A stretch of DNA of 64,000 bases from Sphingobacteriaceae bacterium (GCA_947463785.1 CANHRG010000006.1:1-64000); one strand, 5' to 3'. Numbered from the stretch's first letter, positions 22,581 to 44,557 are shown. A program made the numbers and translations. The notes: generated by a model not told the origin, from the letters alone.

Positions 22581-22589
22581 TTATCCACA
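22581..22589 (+). promoter_or_regulatory. Perfect DnaA-box sequence upstream of gyrB
   Basis: TTATCCACA is identical to the strongest E. coli DnaA box. It lies in the 166-base divergent gap between the OmpH-like gene and gyrB, 28 bases upstream of the gyrB -7 element. No second exact box is present in this gap, so it is more likely a regulatory site, or chance, than an origin. Confidence 0.45.
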
Positions 22590-33998: not shown

Positions 33999-35465
33999 AT
34001 GCAAGAAAAATTAGAACAAACCGGAATGAAACGTGAGTTGGGTCTGCTGGATTCGACCATGATTGTGGCCGGATCAATGATTGGCTCAGGTATTTTTATT
34101 GTAACGGCTGATATTGCCCGTTCTGTTGGATCTCCCGGTTATATTTTGTTGATCTGGTTATTGACCGGTGCAATCACCCTGATTGCTGCTTTAAGTTACG
34201 GAGAATTGGCAGGAATGATGCCGAAGGCCGGTGGCCAGTACGTGTATCTAAAAGAGGCGTATAATCCCTTAATTGGGTTTTTATTCGGCTGGACGGTTTT
34301 TATGGTGATCCAAACCGGAGTAATTGCAGCTGTGGCCATTGCTTTTGCCAAGTTTACCGGTATTCTCTTGCCACAATACATTTCTGATCAGCTTGTGCTA
34401 GCCGATTTAGGATTTTTGAAGTTTAATACACAACAGGCCTTGGCCATTGCCATGATTGCCTTTTTAACTTATGTGAACCTGCAGGGCGTTAAAAATGCCA
34501 AAATTGTGCAAACCACGTTTACGCTGGCCAAAATCATTTCCCTTTTGGGGCTGATTGTATTGGGTGTTTATTTTGGGTTAAACAGCGAAACCTTCCTAAA
34601 CAATATTCAGGATTTCTGGAAACCGTTTAAGACCATTCCAAATCCGGATGGCAGTGTAAGTACCGAGGCACTAAGCGGGATTGTTTTGTTTGGAGCTTTG
34701 GGTGCAGCTATGGTAGGATCTTTGTTCAGCAGCGATGCCTGGAATAACATTACCTATACTGCCGGTGAGGTAAAAGAGCCACAAAAGAACATCCCATTGA
34801 GTTTATTTTTCGGTACCCTGATCGTAACTGTATTGTATGTATTGGCAAATGTTGCTTATTTGATGCTGTTGCCGCTTCAGGGCACTCCCGGTGGCGAGGA
34901 TGTTTTGGCTCGTGGTATTATGTTTGCAACCGATGATCGGGTAGGTACAGCCGCTATTGCAACGGTTTTTGGCAGTGCAGCTGTGGTGATTATGGCGGTA
35001 CTGATTATGATTTCAACCTTTGGTTGTAATAATGGATTGATCCTTTCTGGCGCTCGTTTGTATTATGCAATGGCTAAGGATGGAGTATTCTTTCAAAAGG
35101 CAGGAACGCTGAATAAGAACAATGTTCCTGGTTTTGCATTGATTATTCAGGGAATATGGGCTTCGCTTTTGTGCTTGTCTGGTACCTATGGCGATTTATT
35201 GGATTACTGTACCTTTTCGTCGCTACTGTTTTACATGGTTACCATTATTGGTCTTTTTGTTTTACGCTACAAATGGCCTCATGTAGACCGACCTTATAAA
35301 GCATTTGGCTATCCGGTATTACCAGCCTTCTATATCTTGATTGCAGGAGCTATTTGTATAGATTTGTTGATTTATAAGCCCGAAACCTGTGGCAGGGGAT
35401 TGGTAATTGTAATTATTGGCTTACCAGTATATTATTTGTGGAAGTGGGCGAATAAGAAAAACTAG
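33999..35465 (+). CDS. APC superfamily amino acid permease (LAT-like)
   Basis: A 488-residue inner-membrane transporter with about 12 hydrophobic segments. It starts with a short charged tail and helix 1 containing GSMIGSGIFIV (about 27-37). ALSYGELAGMMPKAGGQYVY (about 65-84) is the conserved APC loop; the overall sequence is closest to the L-type amino acid transporter/exchanger branch. No light-chain partner is encoded nearby, as usual for bacterial LATs. The substrate is not known. Its TAG stop overlaps the folC stop by four bases (CTAG), with no terminator. Confidence 0.87.
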   Translation: MQEKLEQTGMKRELGLLDSTMIVAGSMIGSGIFIVTADIARSVGSPGYILLIWLLTGAITLIAALSYGELAGMMPKAGGQYVYLKEAYNPLIGFLFGWTVFMVIQTGVIAAVAIAFAKFTGILLPQYISDQLVLADLGFLKFNTQQALAIAMIAFLTYVNLQGVKNAKIVQTTFTLAKIISLLGLIVLGVYFGLNSETFLNNIQDFWKPFKTIPNPDGSVSTEALSGIVLFGALGAAMVGSLFSSDAWNNITYTAGEVKEPQKNIPLSLFFGTLIVTVLYVLANVAYLMLLPLQGTPGGEDVLARGIMFATDDRVGTAAIATVFGSAAVVIMAVLIMISTFGCNNGLILSGARLYYAMAKDGVFFQKAGTLNKNNVPGFALIIQGIWASLLCLSGTYGDLLDYCTFSSLLFYMVTIIGLFVLRYKWPHVDRPYKAFGYPVLPAFYILIAGAICIDLLIYKPETCGRGLVIVIIGLPVYYLWKWANKKN

Positions 35466-36754
35466 ACTACTTCTGAAACTACAAAAGTACTGCCCCCGAT
35501 GAAAATCAGATCATTGGGGGCAGCTTGTTTTAAAGCTGCCTTAAAGGCTTCTTGTACCGTATTAAAAGTTTTGCCAATTAATCCGGCCGAGTTTGCTTCT
35601 TGGGCTAATGCTGAAGCTGCTTTGGCTCTCGGGATATTGGGCTGGCAGAAATAGTAATTGGCGGTTTTGGGTAGCATACTCAATACTTTGAGGGTGTCTT
35701 TATCACTTACCATGCCCCAAACCAGGTGCAGTTCATGATGCGGTGTGGCCACTATATTTTCCAGCACTTCCCGAATGCCGTCCTCGTTGTGTCCGGTATC
35801 GCAAATTACTAAAGGTCCAGTTTGTAGTGTTTGCCAACGTCCCTGTAAACCGGTCAAAACCTTAACCTGCTTAAGTGCAGTTTGAATGTGTTCGTCTGTA
35901 ATTTTGAAACCTATTTTTTTGAGTTCTTCTACTGCAGATAGTACCGTCGCAAGATTCTTCAACTGATAACTTCCTGTCAGATCCAACTCGATTTTTAAAC
36001 TCTTGTGGGATTTGATGTGCTCTGCATTTACACTGAAGTGTTCTTGTTTCTCAATCGGATTAATCTGCCATTCGTGCTGAGCAAAATGAATTTCAGATTG
36101 GCATTCATAGGCTTTTTTCTCAAATACAGATTTTGTTTCGGGATGGATTTCACCAATAATGACGGGTGTATGATTTTTAATTATCCCGGCTTTTTCAAAT
36201 GCAATTTCAGGTAATGTATTGCCCAAGATATTCATGTGATCAAACCCGATATTGGTGATTACTGATATAAGCGGTTGGATGATGTTGGTGGAGTCTAATC
36301 GTCCACCTAAACCCACCTCAATTACTGCTACATCAACTTCAGCTTTGGCAAAAGCGTCAAAAGCCATGGCTACCGTGGCTTCAAAAAATGAAGGTTCAAT
36401 CTTTTGAAATAAGTCGGCATGCTGGTTTACAAAATCAATTACCGATTGCTCAGTCACCAATTCTCCATTAATGCGAATACGCTCCCGAAAATCTTTTAGG
36501 TGTGGGGAAGTATGCAGCCCGGTTTTATAGCCTGCAGTTTGTAAAATAGCGGCAAGCATGTGCGAAGTTGAGCCTTTGCCATTGGTTCCTCCCACATGTA
36601 TGGATTTGAATTTTCTTTCGGGATTTCCTAAGGCATTACACAAAGCCTGAATGTTGTGCAGATCTTTTTTATAGGCCGCCGAGCCGATTCGAGTAAACAT
36701 CGGCAGTTGGGCATACAGAAAATCCAGAGTTTCGGAGTAGCTGCTAAAAGGCAT
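35462..36754 (-). CDS. folC: Folylpolyglutamate synthase / dihydrofolate synthase
   Basis: FolC adds glutamate to dihydropteroate and folates, using ATP. The 430-residue protein has the Mur-ligase-type P-loop GGTNGKGSTSHML (about 55-67), HTSPHLKDFRERI (about 80-92), the VIEVGLGGRLDSTN motif (about 139-152) and C-terminal VICDTGHNEDGI (about 310-321). Length is normal. It is the last gene of the envelope operon, 10 bases after the TonB-like gene; no functional link to that operon is obvious. Confidence 0.95.
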   Translation of the reverse strand: MPFSSYSETLDFLYAQLPMFTRIGSAAYKKDLHNIQALCNALGNPERKFKSIHVGGTNGKGSTSHMLAAILQTAGYKTGLHTSPHLKDFRERIRINGELVTEQSVIDFVNQHADLFQKIEPSFFEATVAMAFDAFAKAEVDVAVIEVGLGGRLDSTNIIQPLISVITNIGFDHMNILGNTLPEIAFEKAGIIKNHTPVIIGEIHPETKSVFEKKAYECQSEIHFAQHEWQINPIEKQEHFSVNAEHIKSHKSLKIELDLTGSYQLKNLATVLSAVEELKKIGFKITDEHIQTALKQVKVLTGLQGRWQTLQTGPLVICDTGHNEDGIREVLENIVATPHHELHLVWGMVSDKDTLKVLSMLPKTANYYFCQPNIPRAKAASALAQEANSAGLIGKTFNTVQEAFKAALKQAAPNDLIFIGGSTFVVSEVV

Positions 36755-36764
36755 GGAGGATAGC

Positions 36765-37571
36765 TTACCTTACCTTGAAATTAAAAATTACCACCCCAAT
36801 CTGAACATCTGGGGCAGATTCCAATTGATTTAAACGTGATCCGACAACAGCTCGTTCACATTTTCGCCATAAACTTAAATCGGATAGGGTAGTGCCTTTG
36901 GCACCTGCACGGGCATACACCACCAATCCGGTTTTATCTACCCTGATTTCTACCGCAATACGTCCGGCAGCCTGGCCATCGTCCTCAATTTTCGGAATAC
37001 TTACAAAACGTCTGTTGGCTAAGGATAAACTTACACCTCCGAAGCCAGAACCTCCTTCGCCGTAATTTGGAGAAAGCGGATCTCCGTTTACGCTTCCCTG
37101 GTTTCCTGGAGTACTTCCCGTTCCGTCGCCTTTACCCTGACCAGTATTTTGTTTGCCCTTGTACAAAGCATTCTGATTAACCGCAGAACTGGCATTCTTA
37201 ACATCGCTCACAGTTGCTGGGTTGCTGTTGGGTTTATTTTTAGTGCTAATTGCTGGTGCATCTTCTGCATCTTGTGTTAATACAGATTTATTTGAGCTCT
37301 CTGCTGAAGGATTATTACTAGTGGTTGTTTGTGTATTATCTGGTAATGCCCCATTAGCATTAGGATCAACGGATGGTTCATCAATACTCATGAAATCGTC
37401 TCCCATACCCGACTCGGAGGTGCCATAATTCACAATAATGCCACCTGTGCCTACTTCTTGATTCAAGGGCATACCAATAATCACAAAATAACTAATGAGC
37501 AATAAAATGCCCATGGCCAATGCGGATAAAGCAAAGGCTTTTGGATAGTTATTTTCTTCCCGATAGGCCAT
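36765..37571 (-). CDS. TonB/TolA-like energy transducer
   Basis: The 268-residue protein has a short cytoplasmic N-terminus, one membrane helix (about 12-34), a long low-complexity Ser/Asn/Asp/Gly-rich periplasmic linker (about 60-175) and a C-terminal domain (about 185-268) with GRIAVEIRVDKTGLVVYARA, which resembles the TonB/TolA C-terminal fold. It should transmit force from ExbBD to outer-membrane partners. The linker lacks the Pro-Lys/Pro-Glu repeats of classical TonB. It starts 3 bases after exbD. Whether it acts as TonB or TolA is not decidable from sequence. Confidence 0.8.
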   Translation of the reverse strand: MAYREENNYPKAFALSALAMGILLLISYFVIIGMPLNQEVGTGGIIVNYGTSESGMGDDFMSIDEPSVDPNANGALPDNTQTTTSNNPSAESSNKSVLTQDAEDAPAISTKNKPNSNPATVSDVKNASSAVNQNALYKGKQNTGQGKGDGTGSTPGNQGSVNGDPLSPNYGEGGSGFGGVSLSLANRRFVSIPKIEDDGQAAGRIAVEIRVDKTGLVVYARAGAKGTTLSDLSLWRKCERAVVGSRLNQLESAPDVQIGVVIFNFKVR

Positions 37572-37574
37572 GAA

Positions 37575-37973
37575 TTACTTCGGTTCTGTAGCTAAAACGA
37601 GTTTTATTTTTAGTTTGTTGGCGATATCCATCACGTTTACCACATTTTCTATGGCAACGCTGCGGTCAACGTACAATACAATGGTTAATTCCTGAGCTGT
37701 GCCCTGATAACTTTGAAGTTTGGGCATCAATTGCTCAGGTGTTACCTGCTGTTTATCTACAAAATATTCTAAATCTTTGGTTACCGATACCGTGATGGTT
37801 TTTTTAGATACCGACTGTCCGGAATCAGATCGCGGTAGCAAGAGTTTTACCACATTGGGATTGGTAATGGTTGATGCAATGAGGAAAAACAACAACAGGA
37901 AAAACATGATGTCGTTCATTGCAGAAGCGTGTACTTCTGCACCTGGCCGATTTTTTCTTCCTCTTAAATTCAT
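37575..37973 (-). CDS. exbD: Biopolymer transport protein ExbD/TolR
   Basis: The 132-residue protein has one membrane helix with the essential proton-path Asp at residue 21 (NDIMFFLLLFFLIAS, 20-34), followed by a periplasmic domain with VTPEQLMPKLQSY and IVLYVDRSVAIENVVNVMD. Length and layout match ExbD/TolR. The start overlaps the end of exbB by 4 bases (ATGA type), so translation is coupled. It forms the proton channel with ExbB. Confidence 0.95.
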   Translation of the reverse strand: MNLRGRKNRPGAEVHASAMNDIMFFLLLFFLIASTITNPNVVKLLLPRSDSGQSVSKKTITVSVTKDLEYFVDKQQVTPEQLMPKLQSYQGTAQELTIVLYVDRSVAIENVVNVMDIANKLKIKLVLATEPK

Positions 37974-38671
37974 TGTCCGGGCTCCTCTAAGAGATCAATA
38001 AATTCTACGGCATCAGTTTCCATTTTCAAGATTACACGGTCAACCATGATATTGAGGATGTGGTAGCCCACATAAGCCAAAATACCGATCATCAGGCCCG
38101 TTGCAGAGGTAATCATTTTCTCGTACAAGCCTCCTGCAATTACACCCATACTGATGTTATCAGTTAAAGAGATGTTGTAGAAAATCCGGATAACCCCAGA
38201 AATGGTCCCCACGAAACCTAGCATTGGCGCAATTCCGGCAACAATTCCTAAAATGCTGATGTTTTTTTCCAGTTTTGAAACCTCCAGCTTACCTACATTC
38301 TCTATGGCTCCTTCAATTTCTTTGATCGGGCGTCCAATTCTCAATAATCCTTTTTGCAACATGCGTCCAAGGGCGCTATTGCTACCACGACAAATGGCAA
38401 TGGCTGAATCAAGCTTGCCGGATGTAATGCTTTGCTTAACCTGCTGCATTAAATTGGTTTCGTCTTTTGAAGCTTTTCGAATAGTTAAGTAGCGCTCGAT
38501 AAAAATGACCAAAGCCAGGAAGAAAAGTAAAATGAGCGGCAACATTACCCATCCACCTTTGAAAAGAAGGTCAATGAAACGGAGTTCTTGCCCGGCGGCA
38601 CTTGCTTGTACGGCTTTTGCTGTACTGTCGGCTAAGCTTTGACTCATACTATCGATCTGTAATAAAAACAT
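37970..38671 (-). CDS. exbB: MotA/TolQ/ExbB proton channel protein
   Basis: ExbB/TolQ forms the pentameric proton channel that drives TonB or TolA. The 233-residue protein has three hydrophobic segments (about 37-60, 140-165, 180-205), the MLQKGLLRIGRPIKEIEGAI stretch and LGIVAGIAPMLGFVGTISGV (about 141-160), the family signature with the conserved Thr/Gly. Longer frames begin at 38716, overlapping the upstream gene; ATG at 38671 follows its TAA by one base and was chosen. There is a short N-terminal periplasmic tail rich in Ser/Ala. Confidence 0.94.
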   Translation of the reverse strand: MFLLQIDSMSQSLADSTAKAVQASAAGQELRFIDLLFKGGWVMLPLILLFFLALVIFIERYLTIRKASKDETNLMQQVKQSITSGKLDSAIAICRGSNSALGRMLQKGLLRIGRPIKEIEGAIENVGKLEVSKLEKNISILGIVAGIAPMLGFVGTISGVIRIFYNISLTDNISMGVIAGGLYEKMITSATGLMIGILAYVGYHILNIMVDRVILKMETDAVEFIDLLEEPGQ

Positions 38672-38672
38672 A

Positions 38673-39659
38673 TTAGGTTTTTGATTTTTTAGGTTTAACA
38701 TGATAAATCCAGGCACCTCTGCTCAATTCAGACTGGATTTTTTTCAACTCGGTTTGTGCCGACTCTTGATCTGCAAAGGAGCCTACACTTATTTTAATAA
38801 ATTTACCCGGACGCGTTTCTAATGCTTTTGCCCTAATATTCCGTTGAGCTAGCTCTTGAATAAACTTATCGGCCTCAGAACGTTTTCCAAAAGCAGCAAT
38901 CACAATTTCGTAGCTCGATTCCTGATTTACTTCTTGAACGGCAATTTTCGACGAATCTTGTGTTGGTGAATTAGAAACGGAGTCGGTAATCGCTACCGTG
39001 TCAACAGCTACTGTGTCTTTCTGGATAATTGGGGCTTTAACCTCAATAGGTTCCTGCTTCGGATTTAGTAAAGAACTAATCAGATTTGGATAAAGTACCT
39101 GAACAATAGCTGTGCATGCTAGTAGCAGGGCTAGCACAAAAATCCAGGTTTTTGATGAGCTCGACTCTTCAACAGCATCCAATTCCTCCTCAAATTCCTC
39201 AACAGATTGTTGTTCAACTAGTTCATCTGCTATTTTCTCATCAATTTCCTGAGTTTCTCCGGTTTCTTTTTGGGCTTTTAAGCCAAAAAAAGCGTTTGGA
39301 ATCAGATCCGGGTCGGCTTCAAATACAAGTCCCTTAGGTCCGTTTTCAAACGTGCCTAAGAAATCGATTTTGATGAGTTCGGTAGTCGAGAGTAAATCAT
39401 TCAGGTTATTTACATATTCCCTGATGAAATTTTCGGCATTTTCTCTAGAAATATTTTCATTCAGGCTAATGTAATCCAAGAGTGTGTCGTCTTCAACGTA
39501 TTTAGTGTTGAATACCACTTTTTCACTTGGAGGTAGAAAGCTCTGGGTAGTTTGATCAAAATAAGCCGGTAATTCTTCACGACGGAAGCTGCCCAGTCCG
39601 GGCACAATCAGTTCATTTCGCTTGCGAATCAGTTCTACTAAGTAACGGCTAATATCCAT
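38673..39659 (-). CDS. HU-domain (CCDC81-type) / transmembrane / SPOR protein
   Basis: A 328-residue three-part protein. Residues 1-125 form two HU/CCDC81-like domains (MDISRYLVELIRKRNELIVP, then IVPGLGSF-type turn and IKIDFLGTFENG), which would lie in the cytoplasm and may bind DNA. An acidic linker (about 130-168) precedes one membrane helix (about 171-190). The periplasmic part ends in a SPOR domain (about 250-328; YEIVIAAFGKRSEADKF, PGKFIKISVGSFADQESAQ), which in other proteins binds denuded septal peptidoglycan. The protein could thus tether chromosome and cell wall. It lies 42 bases after the barrel gene and 1 base before exbB. Confidence 0.85.
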   Translation of the reverse strand: MDISRYLVELIRKRNELIVPGLGSFRREELPAYFDQTTQSFLPPSEKVVFNTKYVEDDTLLDYISLNENISRENAENFIREYVNNLNDLLSTTELIKIDFLGTFENGPKGLVFEADPDLIPNAFFGLKAQKETGETQEIDEKIADELVEQQSVEEFEEELDAVEESSSSKTWIFVLALLLACTAIVQVLYPNLISSLLNPKQEPIEVKAPIIQKDTVAVDTVAITDSVSNSPTQDSSKIAVQEVNQESSYEIVIAAFGKRSEADKFIQELAQRNIRAKALETRPGKFIKISVGSFADQESAQTELKKIQSELSRGAWIYHVKPKKSKT

Positions 39660-39701
39660 CGCAGTAAATTTAACCCTTAATTGTAAAAAGGCAAAATCTC
39701 A

Positions 39702-41381
39702 TTAGAAGGAATACTGTAAACCACCAAAAAAGTTTAGCCCTAATCTAGGGTAGTATAGGTATTGTTGATAGGCCTTGTTCAAGAGATTGTTGGCTTGCGC
39801 AAAGGCCGACCATTTTTTTGTTACTTGGTATTCTGCACCCACACTGATATCCAAAAAGCTATCTAAGCTGATTGCTTCGGCGTTTAAACCTTTGCCAAAG
39901 GTTTCACCCTGGTAAACTAAGCTGCTACTCAAATTGATTTTTTGTGACACTTGTGCACGAAGCTGACTTTCTAAACGCAAACTTGGCTTGAACCAAGCTT
40001 TAGTCTCGTTCTCCAATTTGTAGTTAATGGCTTGTAATTTACTTGAGATATTCAATTTATCCGTAGCCTTGATATCAACCTGAGCATCAAATCCACTCAA
40101 CTGACTGATACCTTGCGCATAGCTAATCTCGAAGCGGTTAAGCCTGCTGGAGGAATTGACTAGTAAGGGTAGGTCCTGAATTCGTTTCATCCATACGCTT
40201 GCTTTGTAACCCAATACTTCACCTGCATTTCCTTTTACTCCAGCAAAAAAATGATTTTTTACAACAGAGTTCTGTATGCTAATTGATCTTCCCAAATACG
40301 GGTTCTCAAAAGAGAATTCATTTAAAGAAGTTTTTTGTACATCACCGTTTAAGCCGGCAAAAAATACGGCATAATCGGGTGCAATAGTAAATTCGGCATG
40401 AACAACAGGGAATAGATTTGTTCTTTTAAGGATCCCAGATTCCTGAACTAAATTAAGTCCAATGTTCACTTGGAGGCCGTTGGCCTGATAATTTGCAAAT
40501 GGATTTAACCTGGTTAGGTTGTTTTTTACCGTATTGCTTTCCAAGTTGACGGTTGTCAAATCTAGTGAACTACGTAATCCAAAATTGAACGCTCTCCACT
40601 TTTTGGTAGCCATACCACTCACTACGATAGAGTTTTCTTTAGCTGATGTAGAATTTTTGAAGAGGTTGGCATCCAGTTTTAAGCCGTAATTAATGCCTTC
40701 TGGATTACTGTCGTACGTACTACCAAGGTCAGCAATTAATTGAATTACACTCAATCGTTGTTTTTCCGGATCGCTGAGTACAGAAGGCAAGGCTAGTGGA
40801 TCTGCCCCGTAAAAATACGTGCCGAAGCCTTTGTAATTGGCCTGAGTACTAAAGCTTGTGTTTTTGCCTACTGATTTTAGGAAAGCACCGAGGTGTTGCT
40901 CACTAAATTCTTGCCTTTTTATAGCTCCAGATTGTGCAAAGTGTTTGGCAAAAAAGCCAGTCTGCATTGCCTGGTCTCTACCATTGTTAAGATAGAATTC
41001 ACCAATACCGGTTTTGAAGCTTCCTAATCCTGCCTTGATCAAACTGTTGTTTAACTCCGAGATTTTTGGAGTTTCAAGTTGTTGGTACTGTAGTTGACGG
41101 ATATCGGTATTCAACTCTAGTTTTTTGTTCAGAATACTGTAAGTGAGCGTTGGTTTGTAAGTTGGGCTTTCGTTTAAATCCGGGTTTCTGCGGATTTTGG
41201 AAGCATTTGCCAATACGGGTTTGTAGGGCCGAACTACCTCTATTTCTTCAGCTAAAACACTTTTTGGAGCTTCCGGTTTAGGTTCTTCCTTTTTATCTTG
41301 GGCGTAAGTCTTTCCGCATAGCACAGCAGAAATAAGTGCGATATGAAGAAAAATCAGTTTTGTTTTCCGGATTTGGTTCAT
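39702..41381 (-). CDS. Outer-membrane beta-barrel protein (TonB-dependent receptor-like, no plug)
   Basis: The 559-residue protein has a signal peptide (MNQIRKTKLIFLHIALISAV..., cleaved after TYA) and a charged Lys/Glu/Pro region followed by EIEVVRPYKPVLANASKIRR (about 48-67). The remaining sequence is alternating amphipathic strands ending in LGLNFFGGLQYSF, a C-terminal Phe as required for BAM recognition. The end of the barrel resembles TonB-dependent receptors, but no plug domain is seen. The frame extends to 41405; ATG at 41381 follows the TPR gene stop by one base and was chosen. Function unknown; position suggests it is a partner of the ExbBD-TonB set. Confidence 0.75.
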   Translation of the reverse strand: MNQIRKTKLIFLHIALISAVLCGKTYAQDKKEEPKPEAPKSVLAEEIEVVRPYKPVLANASKIRRNPDLNESPTYKPTLTYSILNKKLELNTDIRQLQYQQLETPKISELNNSLIKAGLGSFKTGIGEFYLNNGRDQAMQTGFFAKHFAQSGAIKRQEFSEQHLGAFLKSVGKNTSFSTQANYKGFGTYFYGADPLALPSVLSDPEKQRLSVIQLIADLGSTYDSNPEGINYGLKLDANLFKNSTSAKENSIVVSGMATKKWRAFNFGLRSSLDLTTVNLESNTVKNNLTRLNPFANYQANGLQVNIGLNLVQESGILKRTNLFPVVHAEFTIAPDYAVFFAGLNGDVQKTSLNEFSFENPYLGRSISIQNSVVKNHFFAGVKGNAGEVLGYKASVWMKRIQDLPLLVNSSSRLNRFEISYAQGISQLSGFDAQVDIKATDKLNISSKLQAINYKLENETKAWFKPSLRLESQLRAQVSQKINLSSSLVYQGETFGKGLNAEAISLDSFLDISVGAEYQVTKKWSAFAQANNLLNKAYQQYLYYPRLGLNFFGGLQYSF

Positions 41382-41382
41382 C

Positions 41383-44300
41383 TTATTTCTTTTTGTTAAG
41401 TGCATCTAATTTCTCTTTAGCGGTTGGAAGGATGTCATCATCTCCAGTATAATTATCTAAAACACTTTGTAAAGTACTTTTTGCCTGGAATTCATCTTTT
41501 AAAGCCAGGTAGTTATCAGCCAAGAGGATAAAGCTTTTTGCAACCCAGTAATCGAAGGAGGGGAGGTTATTGATCAATTCGAAAGCCGTTTTTTGAGAAT
41601 TCGCAAAATCGCCTTGTTGATGTTGAATGAGCGCAATTTGGTATAGCGCTTCGGCTGCTGCCACCGTTTTTGTTTGTTTGCTAACTGCTTTAAAGTTTTC
41701 TAATGCAGCAGATTGGTTATTTTTCAATAGGTAGGCTTTGCCCATAAATAGTCCAGCCCTCGTTTTGTCTTCTTCTGAGGATTTTTCGAAAGCTTTCACC
41801 AAGTCGACATATCTAAGAGTTTCGTCTGGCATCTTCAAATTGGCGTAAGATTCCATTAGGTTGTTTACGGCGAAACCGTAATTGGTCTTATATTCTGACG
41901 TAAGCTCCAGTTTTTTCAAATGCACAATGGCTTCGTTGTATTTCTTCTGTGTCAGGTAAATTTTAGAAATGCTGATCAAGGCTTTTTCTGTAAAATCGCT
42001 GGTCCAATCATTCAAAATGAATTCGTAATCGCGGATAGCATCATCGGGTTTTCCGGTCTTTACTAAACTTTCTGCCCGAATATATGAGGCTTGTTTTGCA
42101 TGAATAGCCTTAGGAAATTTATCAAAATAGGCATAAACAGCATCAATAGCCCCACTGTAATCGCCGTTTAAGAAACGCTTATTAGCAGCTTCAAAAGTTA
42201 AATTGTCTTGCTCCGCCTGACTTAAATTGCCAATGTTGGTAGAATTGGCATAATTCAAAAATCCCTCTGCATCGGTACGATCCATGTAAATGTTTTTGAT
42301 CGATTCTAAGGCTTGTTGTGCCTCATCGGTTACCGCATATTCCGAAACCACTTTCTTAAAGGTTTCTAAAGCTAAATCGTCGTTGTTTTGATTGTATTGA
42401 ACAAGTCCGATGGTTACAAGTGCTCTGGGTACATAGCTGCTTCTTGGGTATTTTTGAATGAGTAAGCTTAAATCGGCCTTGGAGCGTTCAAATTCTCCTT
42501 TTACGAAATAAGTATAAGCAATTTCAAATCCGGCATCGTCTGCGTAATTGGAGTTAGGGAATTGTGCTAATAGCGTTTGATGAGTTGCGATTTTGGCATC
42601 ATTCTGTCCTTGTAGACCTTGAATCATCCCTCGTTGAAATAATGCATAATCTTGGCTAGATGAGCCTTCAATTTGTACACGGGTATAGTTAGCCATTGCT
42701 CCCTCGTAGTTTTTAGACACAAAATAAGCGTCGGCTAAACGTAGAGTGGCATCCGTATGGGTATTGTTGTCGATATCTTTACCTTTCAAAAATTGTTCAA
42801 AATGTAAAGAAGCTTTGTAATAGTTCTCATCTTCAAAATAGGCATAGCCCAAACCGTAGTTGGCGTAATTAAACAGGTTTGTTTTTCGTGCAATAGGCAT
42901 GGCCAAGAAGCTTTGGAACTTCTCAATCGCTTCACCGTATTTACGCACTTCATACATGGCCTCGGCCATCCAATACGTCGATAGCGCAGCAATTTCTTCG
43001 TCGATAGCAGATTTATTGGATCGCATAAATGCCGAAATTGCATTTTGGAAGGCTCTTTCGTTGTAAAATTCTAAGGCCCGGTAATACGTTACTTTTTGGT
43101 AGACTTCTAGTGCTTCTTTGGATTTATTTGGAATGCTTTCCAAAATATCGATCGCATCTTTATAGTTCTTGGTGGTTAGCAAAATTTCACCTAAAAGCAC
43201 TTTTGCTTCATCCAAGCGTTTGGAATAGCTGTAATTACTTATAAACTCTTGTGTGGCATCTAAGGCAACTTGATGAAATGCCAGCTCGTAAGAAAGCTTG
43301 GCATAATTAAAAGAAGCTTCTTCTTGAATATCCTTATCGTAATTTAATTTAGAAGCTCTGAAAAAAGCATTTCTAGCACTTTGTTTATTGTCAATTTGTA
43401 GAAAAGCTTGGCCGAGGGCCATCATGCCACTTTGGTAAAACTCATCGGTGGTATTCAGTGTTTCTAGCTCTTCAATGGCTTTTTCGTAATTTTTTAGTTG
43501 TAAGGATGCGTAACCAATTTGGTAGCTATCCTGATTGTTCTGCGTTTTTCGCTGATCTTTTTCCTGAAACTTTTGGTAGTAATTGATTGCGTGAGCATAA
43601 TTGGAAATGGCAAAATAAGAGGCACCTATTATGCGAAGCATTTCTGTTTCATACTTTGCTTCTATACCCTGCAAGCTCGGTATAGCATATGTAATCACAT
43701 CTTCGTATCGCTTATCTAAAAAATACAGCGCAGAAATGTAATATGGATAACTGGAAGCATAGGTTTTAGAGCCTTTTAACCGCTCGAATTCTTTTAAAGC
43801 CGTTTGATAATCTGCATTTAGATAGCTGATGTAGGCGTAAAAATAGATGGCGGCTTCCTGATAGTCAGATGGTTCGTCTTTCAAAGTGCCAAATAACGGC
43901 TCAGCAGAGGTATAATCTTTAGTTTCAAAAAGAGCATAAGCCAGTTTAAACCGGTAATCTTTGCTGGTTTTGGGGTCTAAAAACTGGGCATCTGTTTTCT
44001 TAAACCATTCGATAGCCTTTGGGTAGTTAGAAAGACTAAACTCATAACGTCCCAAATGGTAATAGGCCATTCTAGTATTGTTATTTACCGGGTAGAGCTC
44101 TACAAATTTGTGAAAAAGGTTTCGCGTATCTTCATTTCCCAGCTCTAAGGCACATAGGGCCTGGTAATACAAAGCATTTTGTTTAAGTACACTTGCGTCC
44201 CGTTGTTGATTTGCATCAGCATCGAGATTTAGACGACTTTTCTCCACTCTGTCGAAATGTTCAGCAGCAGCTACATACCTCTGCTTTTGGAGTAAATCCA

Positions 44301-44409
44301 GTCCCTTTTGGTAGTCTTGATTTAGTTGATACCAGGTATTTTCTTGTGCAAATGCGTGATAAGAACTAAGGAAAAGTAAACTAAGGATTATCCGTTGCAA
44401 GCTGAACAT
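41383..44409 (-). CDS. Large secreted TPR-repeat protein
   Basis: The 1008-residue protein has a signal peptide (MFSLQRIILSLLFLSSYHAF, cleaved after FAQ) and then tetratricopeptide-like repeats along its whole length, e.g. YYHLGRYEFSLSNYPKAIEW, FNYANYGLGYAYFEDENYYK, DDAGFEIAYTYFVKGEFERS. Repeats of this kind occur in periplasmic CpoB/YbgF and BamD proteins. It should be a periplasmic or outer-membrane-associated scaffold. The frame is open to 44493, but ATG at 44409 starts a proper signal peptide. It is the first gene of the operon running to folC and has two palindromes upstream. Confidence 0.85.
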   Translation of the reverse strand: MFSLQRIILSLLFLSSYHAFAQENTWYQLNQDYQKGLDLLQKQRYVAAAEHFDRVEKSRLNLDADANQQRDASVLKQNALYYQALCALELGNEDTRNLFHKFVELYPVNNNTRMAYYHLGRYEFSLSNYPKAIEWFKKTDAQFLDPKTSKDYRFKLAYALFETKDYTSAEPLFGTLKDEPSDYQEAAIYFYAYISYLNADYQTALKEFERLKGSKTYASSYPYYISALYFLDKRYEDVITYAIPSLQGIEAKYETEMLRIIGASYFAISNYAHAINYYQKFQEKDQRKTQNNQDSYQIGYASLQLKNYEKAIEELETLNTTDEFYQSGMMALGQAFLQIDNKQSARNAFFRASKLNYDKDIQEEASFNYAKLSYELAFHQVALDATQEFISNYSYSKRLDEAKVLLGEILLTTKNYKDAIDILESIPNKSKEALEVYQKVTYYRALEFYNERAFQNAISAFMRSNKSAIDEEIAALSTYWMAEAMYEVRKYGEAIEKFQSFLAMPIARKTNLFNYANYGLGYAYFEDENYYKASLHFEQFLKGKDIDNNTHTDATLRLADAYFVSKNYEGAMANYTRVQIEGSSSQDYALFQRGMIQGLQGQNDAKIATHQTLLAQFPNSNYADDAGFEIAYTYFVKGEFERSKADLSLLIQKYPRSSYVPRALVTIGLVQYNQNNDDLALETFKKVVSEYAVTDEAQQALESIKNIYMDRTDAEGFLNYANSTNIGNLSQAEQDNLTFEAANKRFLNGDYSGAIDAVYAYFDKFPKAIHAKQASYIRAESLVKTGKPDDAIRDYEFILNDWTSDFTEKALISISKIYLTQKKYNEAIVHLKKLELTSEYKTNYGFAVNNLMESYANLKMPDETLRYVDLVKAFEKSSEEDKTRAGLFMGKAYLLKNNQSAALENFKAVSKQTKTVAAAEALYQIALIQHQQGDFANSQKTAFELINNLPSFDYWVAKSFILLADNYLALKDEFQAKSTLQSVLDNYTGDDDILPTAKEKLDALNKKK

Positions 44410-44447
44410 AGAATGAACATTGGGTGTGAGTACTAATTTAGTCCAAT

Positions 44448-44490
44448 TTGATAGCTCTTCAGCTATCAATAAATCCACATCTGTGGATAA
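44448..44490. repeat. Two adjacent palindromes upstream of the large TPR gene
   Basis: The first is TTGATAGCT (44448-44456), CTTC, AGCTATCAA (44461-44469), a perfect 9-bp stem. The second is AAATCCACA (44471-44479), TC, TGTGGATAA (44482-44490); the latter reads TTATCCACA on the minus strand, an exact DnaA-box sequence. They lie in the 148-base gap between pyrB and the TPR gene. Neither is followed by a U-run on the minus strand, so they are not evident terminators; operators or 5'-leader hairpins are possible. Confidence 0.55.
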
Positions 44491-44557
44491 CACAATTTTA
44501 AGGAAAAGATGCGTTGGGAAGAATCTTCAGCAGAAATAATTACTAACAATTTTGTAC

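Follow-up and report, generated by a model that had tools for sequence, protein, structure and literature searches.

Without Tol-Pal, how do Bacteroidota manage to constrict their outer membrane and keep it in place? A six-gene operon in the window, by which we mean the whole stretch of 64,000 nucleotides of Sphingobacteriaceae DNA that was analyzed, provides a concrete alternative to PorE (PMC12204202): in the class Bacteroidia, nearly every genome encodes its TPR protein, the operon also occurs in other classes, and it was never seen together with full-length TolB in a 198-genome sample of the phylum. We propose that it encodes a dedicated trans-envelope force machine, a functional Bacteroidota counterpart of Tol-Pal that would pull a plug-less barrel at a SPOR-marked site on the wall, a reading on which belief and doubt are, for us, evenly balanced. 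We found no published description of the operon in a literature search that covered few subscription journals and no preprints.

Six envelope genes are packed into one operon

The window comes from contig 6 of a genome of 1.8 Mb, which is 99.5% complete. The closest named relatives are Sphingobacteriaceae metagenome-assembled genomes, identifying the organism as a small-genome member of this family. An ORF check placed six genes on one strand, in the order TPR, barrel, HU-TM-SPOR, ExbB, ExbD, and TonB-like. The features of the locus, in the direction of transcription, are as follows.

44410-44557, no strand: pyrB-TPR intergenic region of 148 bp, containing TTATCCACA
41383-44409, minus strand: periplasmic TPR protein (1008 aa) with CpoB/YbgF-type repeats and a signal peptide without lipobox
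39702-41381, minus strand: plug-less 22-strand outer-membrane barrel of the TonB-dependent-transporter type (AlphaFold2 model, PDB matches) with a conserved N-terminal tail
41190-41258 (approximate position), minus strand: TonB-box-like and adjoining conserved motif of the barrel tail, VLAEEIEVVRPYKPVLANASKI, the most conserved stretch of the barrel
38673-39659, minus strand: HU-CCDC81 (two tandem HU folds)-acidic linker-TM-SPOR protein (328 aa)
37970-38671, minus strand: ExbB/TolQ-type motor protein (233 aa; Pfam PF01618, MotA_ExbB, 1e-21; best NCBIfam model tolQ)
37575-37973, minus strand: ExbD/TolR-type motor protein (132 aa; Pfam PF02472, ExbD, 6e-27)
36765-37571, minus strand: TonB/TolA-like force transducer (268 aa) with a TM helix (residues 9-33), a Gly/Asn-rich linker, and a C-terminal domain (residues 180-268)
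35462-36754, minus strand: FolC, which neighbors ExbB-ExbD-TonB throughout the class

Successive genes of the operon are 1, 42, 1, -4, and 3 bases apart. The TPR gene runs from 44409 to 41383 and is followed by the barrel ATG at 41381; the barrel gene ends at 39702 and the HU-SPOR gene starts at 39659, ending at 38673, next to the ExbB ATG at 38671; ExbB, which ends at 37970, overlaps ExbD, which starts at 37973 and ends at 37575; and the TonB-like gene extends from 37571 to 36765. FolC starts at 36754, 10 bases further downstream, and is probably a co-transcribed bystander. The ORF check thus confirmed the genes, the shared strand, and the spacing reported in a first-pass annotation of this DNA, and profile matches and structure models recovered the motor, the TonB/TolA-type transducer, the CpoB-like TPR protein, and the SPOR domain. 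Its assignment of all six genes to one operon is borne out by the tight same-strand packing, together with a gene order kept well outside close relatives.

PyrB lies 148 bases upstream of the TPR gene, and it is possible that the operon has its own promoter in this intergenic region. No convincing promoter or terminator was found inside the operon, where promoter and terminator scans stayed at chance level. The pyrB-TPR intergenic region also carries a perfect DnaA-box-like TTATCCACA at 44482-44490, overlapping a short hairpin; one further copy is present in the window, at 22581.

The operon pairs an ExbBD motor with a CpoB-like TPR protein

The tolQ model, though the best NCBIfam match to ExbB, scores below its equivalog cut-off. 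At least 95% of homologues retain the membrane Asp of ExbD. The Pfam barrel and TonB_C models miss the window proteins, and neither the barrel nor the TonB-like protein has a Pfam match of its own; we therefore used structure models to identify both, whereas transducers from the outer classes exceed the TonB_C cut-off. The transducer has a single TM helix and a disordered yet unusually conserved linker. Its C-terminal domain is modeled with a pLDDT of about 90 and resembles, in the PDB (Foldseek, VIA-align), the C-terminal domain of TonB (Z 8.6) and TolA (Z 7.0). A second, canonical ExbB-ExbD-ExbD-TonB system is encoded separately in the same genome.

The TPR protein scores 192 bits against the NCBIfam tol_pal_ybgF model (TIGR02795; cut-off 90), and all 16 of 16 diverse TPR members match this CpoB/YbgF model at an E value of ≤1e-10. 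At 1008 aa it is much longer than the usual CpoB/YbgF (about 260 aa). A homologue of ∼1000 aa is present, mostly as a single copy, in 141 of 149 Bacteroidia genomes, and in this class the barrel gene nearly always follows directly. One Sphingobacteriaceae genome has a second, N-terminally shortened TPR copy (G020:C1:1170328-1172613). Assignment of the protein to the T9SS was rejected: the PorW/SprE model scores far below its own cut-off, as expected of a generic TPR protein.

The barrel lacks a plug and has a TonB-box-like tail

The first-pass annotation had noted a plugless barrel but had missed that it is, as modeled, of the TonB-dependent-transporter type and that its tail resembles a TonB box. 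In the AlphaFold2 model (mean pLDDT 78.6; mostly >90 in the barrel part), about 22 strands are preceded by a disordered tail at residues 23-110. Among the PDB matches listed, all are TonB-dependent transporters, including BtuB (Z 21.9 over 408 residues, rmsd 3.7) and FhuA (Z 21.7). No Plug domain was found in the 52 barrel members searched.

The tail carries the most conserved stretch of the barrel, with the pattern [DE]-[IV]-x-V-[IV]-x-x-Y-x-P-x-[LIV]-x-[DE]-A-x-K-[IL]-x-x-x-P. At the same position, barrels from the outer classes have LPDFVITG, LPEFVITG, LPDIVISG, or LPEFIVTG, which differ little from textbook TonB boxes, for example DTLVVTA. A TonB-box-like pattern was found by regular expression in 9 of 12 outer-class tails, compared with 0.1 of 12 in shuffled sequences, and by eye in 11 of 12; the strict expression missed two barrels in which the signal-peptide cut had been misplaced. 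The Bacteroidia motif is conserved class-wide but has drifted from the textbook box, which counts against a motor-pulled barrel.

A barrel of this kind could instead serve dedicated TonB-driven transport or export, with the unplugged pore acting as a large conduit for polysaccharide, lipid, or protein that the tail and the TPR protein gate, much as in TPR-barrel exopolysaccharide exporters, with the motor driving this gating. The transporter-type fold, the nearly constant pairing with a TPR protein, and the TonB-box-like tail all fit such a role. However, the loci inspected show no conserved synthase, substrate-binding lipoprotein, or enzyme next to the barrel, near-universal presence in the class suits a housekeeping function better than a single substrate, and a SPOR partner would be odd for transport. 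We consider transport or export unlikely, though a serious competitor to the force machine.

The gene order is old and shared across the phylum

The operon is real, old, and phylum-wide, and within Sphingobacteriaceae its order hardly varies. About two dozen genomes from many genera of this family have TPR-barrel-HUSPOR-ExbB-ExbD-TonB-FolC, in most cases preceded by PyrB, and the same order is found in about 45 named loci from Pedobacter, Sphingobacterium, Mucilaginibacter, Daejeonella, Olivibacter, Parapedobacter, and Solitalea. Since the six-gene order is kept in dozens of genomes, it is not due to chance. Median gaps in the Sphingobacteriaceae loci are 6, 42, 11, -1, and 9 bases. In some Pedobacter genomes (L134-L137, L139, L172, and L185), unrelated genes directly after the barrel gene split or displace the HU-SPOR/motor half.

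Beyond close relatives, where the first-pass annotation had proposed that the order be checked, its halves recur across Bacteroidia and much or all of it is present in other classes. A TonB-like protein was detected in 125 of 149 Bacteroidia genomes at an E value of ≤1e-4, a count in which some weak matches may be generic TonB; where inspected, its gene usually comes after ExbB-ExbD, and FolC is often next. Among 15 loci around TPR homologues in other classes, the barrel gene is next in 12, and in most of these a SPOR protein follows; the order runs on into ExbB and ExbD in at least 6 of the 15, with TonB-like genes next in several. The joined order in other classes suggests that this arrangement is probably ancestral and that the split in many Bacteroidia is derived.

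This split counts against the force machine: in many Bacteroidia families, TPR-barrel-SPOR and ExbB-ExbD-TonB lie far apart. They could be two housekeeping modules that act separately and are mere neighbors in some lineages, and the unrelated pyr and fol genes on either side of the operon are consistent with this. However, joined modules occur on several separate branches of the TPR tree (at least 6 changes) and in other classes, far above a chance level that we estimate at roughly 1% per genome within a 19-kb stretch. We consider such independence improbable.

The HU-TM-SPOR protein probably does not tether DNA

Pfam matches in the HU-SPOR protein are HU-CCDC81_bac_1 (1e-11), HU-CCDC81_bac_2 (1e-7), and SPOR (1e-9; 39.1 bits, above the cut-off of 21). 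The HU fold is recognized above cut-off by PF18174 in the window and by PF18175 and PF00216 in relatives. With one TM and no signal peptide, the protein is predicted to have its HU part on the cytoplasmic side. Over 111 homologues, the net charge of the HU module has a median of -3 (-8 in the window, where the linker has -14), and a single column is mostly basic (K/R-rich); in true HU proteins encoded by the same and related genomes, the median charge is +10 and 15 columns are basic. At the sequence level, the basic DNA-binding surface and arm of true HU are not present in the module. DNA binding is thus unlikely, and we infer that the HU part serves for dimerization or protein binding and does not act as a general DNA tether.

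SPOR is kept in nearly all operons inspected; one genome of family f15 retains SPOR with no recognizable HU, and some outer-class operons have SPOR without HU. Solitalea-type genomes (L183, L046, and L063) keep the whole operon and the HU-TM part but have lost SPOR, a natural domain deletion. In several outer classes (L250, L253, L256, and L260), the first HU unit is a separate gene of 70 to 90 aa just upstream of HU-TM-SPOR, and the tandem HU of Bacteroidia therefore looks like a gene fusion. In other Bacteroidia families (L033, L035, L036, L040, L042, and L044), HU-SPOR adjoins a gene whose N-terminal sequence looks like kdsB (LPS Kdo activation). A plasmid search with HU-SPOR gave no match.

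The first-pass annotation had HU-SPOR tether the nucleoid to the septal wall and couple segregation to constriction, in line with two HU folds predicted to be cytoplasmic, a SPOR domain outside, and the chromosome-partition role that comparative genomics of the HU superfamily reportedly predicted for such proteins, but the acidic HU module, with its one basic column, and the loss of recognizable HU from some operons and of SPOR from others while the operon persists make a fixed chromosome-wall bridge highly improbable as the core function.

TolB is found where the TPR protein is not

Full-length TolB was scored by TIGR02800 above cut-off because TolB_N (PF04052), which also matched in the Bacteroides ihuae control, is insensitive and finds only some members of the TolB-bearing family. 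In the 198-genome sample, the TPR protein and TolB proved complementary: 142 genomes have the TPR protein, none of them with full-length TolB, and 41 have full-length TolB, with two more just below cut-off, all in one family (f71) and all without the TPR protein. About 13 genomes have neither. In one f71 genome inspected, gene order, size, and sequence features indicate a canonical Tol-Pal operon, TolQ-TolR-TolA-(one gene)-TolB-two OmpA-type lipoproteins-YbgF. Family f71 is probably Chlorobiaceae, an assignment drawn partly from PMC12204202, where Chlorobiota are named as having documented tol-pal. Because f71 is one clade, the complementarity amounts to about one evolutionary event, which weakens it as support for a Tol-Pal counterpart.

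The window genome has no TolB_N match and one TIGR02800 match, under cut-off (E value, 8e-25). No OmpA-domain protein (Pal) is encoded in the operon. Pal-like OmpA lipoproteins are encoded elsewhere in the genome, and these count against the proposed machine, as does the proposal of PorE as a Pal surrogate (PMC12204202).

A proposed force machine acting on the outer membrane

Support for a functional counterpart of Tol-Pal comes from the conservation of the operon, its complementarity with TolB, the plug-less barrel with its tail, the TonB/TolA fold, the SPOR domain kept in nearly all operons inspected, the separate canonical Ton system of the genome, and the reported lack of identifiable tol-pal loci in Bacteroidetes (PMC12204202). 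The data here show gene content, conservation, folds, absence of a plug, and TolB complementarity, and from them we infer the contact between TonB and the tail, the septal site, and the role in constriction. The counterpart proposed in the first-pass annotation is in this way strengthened and now rests on the plug-less barrel; its chromosomal link found no support.

In the machine that we envisage, ExbB-ExbD would use the proton-motive force, as its family does, to drive the TonB-like transducer, whose C-terminal domain may grasp the TonB-box-like N-terminal tail of the barrel. With no plug to unfold, force would pass to the barrel or to its TPR partner, so that the outer membrane or a tail-bound partner is moved. 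The 1008-aa TPR solenoid would serve as a periplasmic scaffold on the barrel. SPOR of the inner-membrane partner could place the machine on denuded septal glycan, and force would then act at the site of envelope constriction; the HU part would be a cytoplasmic dimerization or protein-binding module. Some means of sealing the plug-less barrel would be required, a further point against the scheme. More tentatively, and with rather more doubt than confidence, we suggest that this is the outer-membrane-constriction machine that takes the place of Tol-Pal in most of the phylum Bacteroidota, in which the barrel replaces Pal-TolB, is pulled through its TonB-box tail by ExbBD-TonB, and is targeted to the septum by SPOR.

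Comparison with known systems

Tol-Pal (TolQ-TolR-TolA-TolB-Pal-CpoB) and the present operon have in common a proton-driven motor pair, a transducer of the TonB/TolA fold, a CpoB/YbgF-type TPR protein, a wall-binding partner, and a conserved operon. The present operon differs in having a plug-less 22-strand barrel as its outer-membrane partner, a SPOR domain on an inner-membrane protein as the predicted wall-binding element, and an HU module. Membership in Tol-Pal itself was rejected, as TolB and Pal, its two defining parts, are both missing from the operon.

No identifiable tol-pal loci were seen in Bacteroidetes in a 2025 survey, which put forward PorE as the tether between outer membrane and wall, or Pal surrogate (PMC12204202); we did not find the present operon described there. 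Both are offered as stand-ins for Tol-Pal in the same phylum and both have a CpoB-like TPR, but PorE is a single CpoB-TolB-CP-Pal fusion lipoprotein without a motor of its own (PMC12204202), whereas the present system is a separate operon. The HU-SPOR protein belongs to the same family as CCDC81-type HU-SPOR proteins and is set apart by its place in a phylum-wide force-motor operon and by its residue composition, which makes DNA binding unlikely.

With the Ton system, the operon shares ExbB, ExbD, the TonB fold, and a 22-strand barrel with a TonB-box-like tail. Unlike Ton transporters, its barrel has no plug, the part normally moved by TonB, and its motor has a fixed single barrel partner together with TPR and SPOR proteins, while the canonical Ton system is encoded separately in the genome. 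A TonB-type motor has apparently been re-used on a plug-less barrel, and its output could be tested directly as force exerted on the outer membrane itself instead of as transport.
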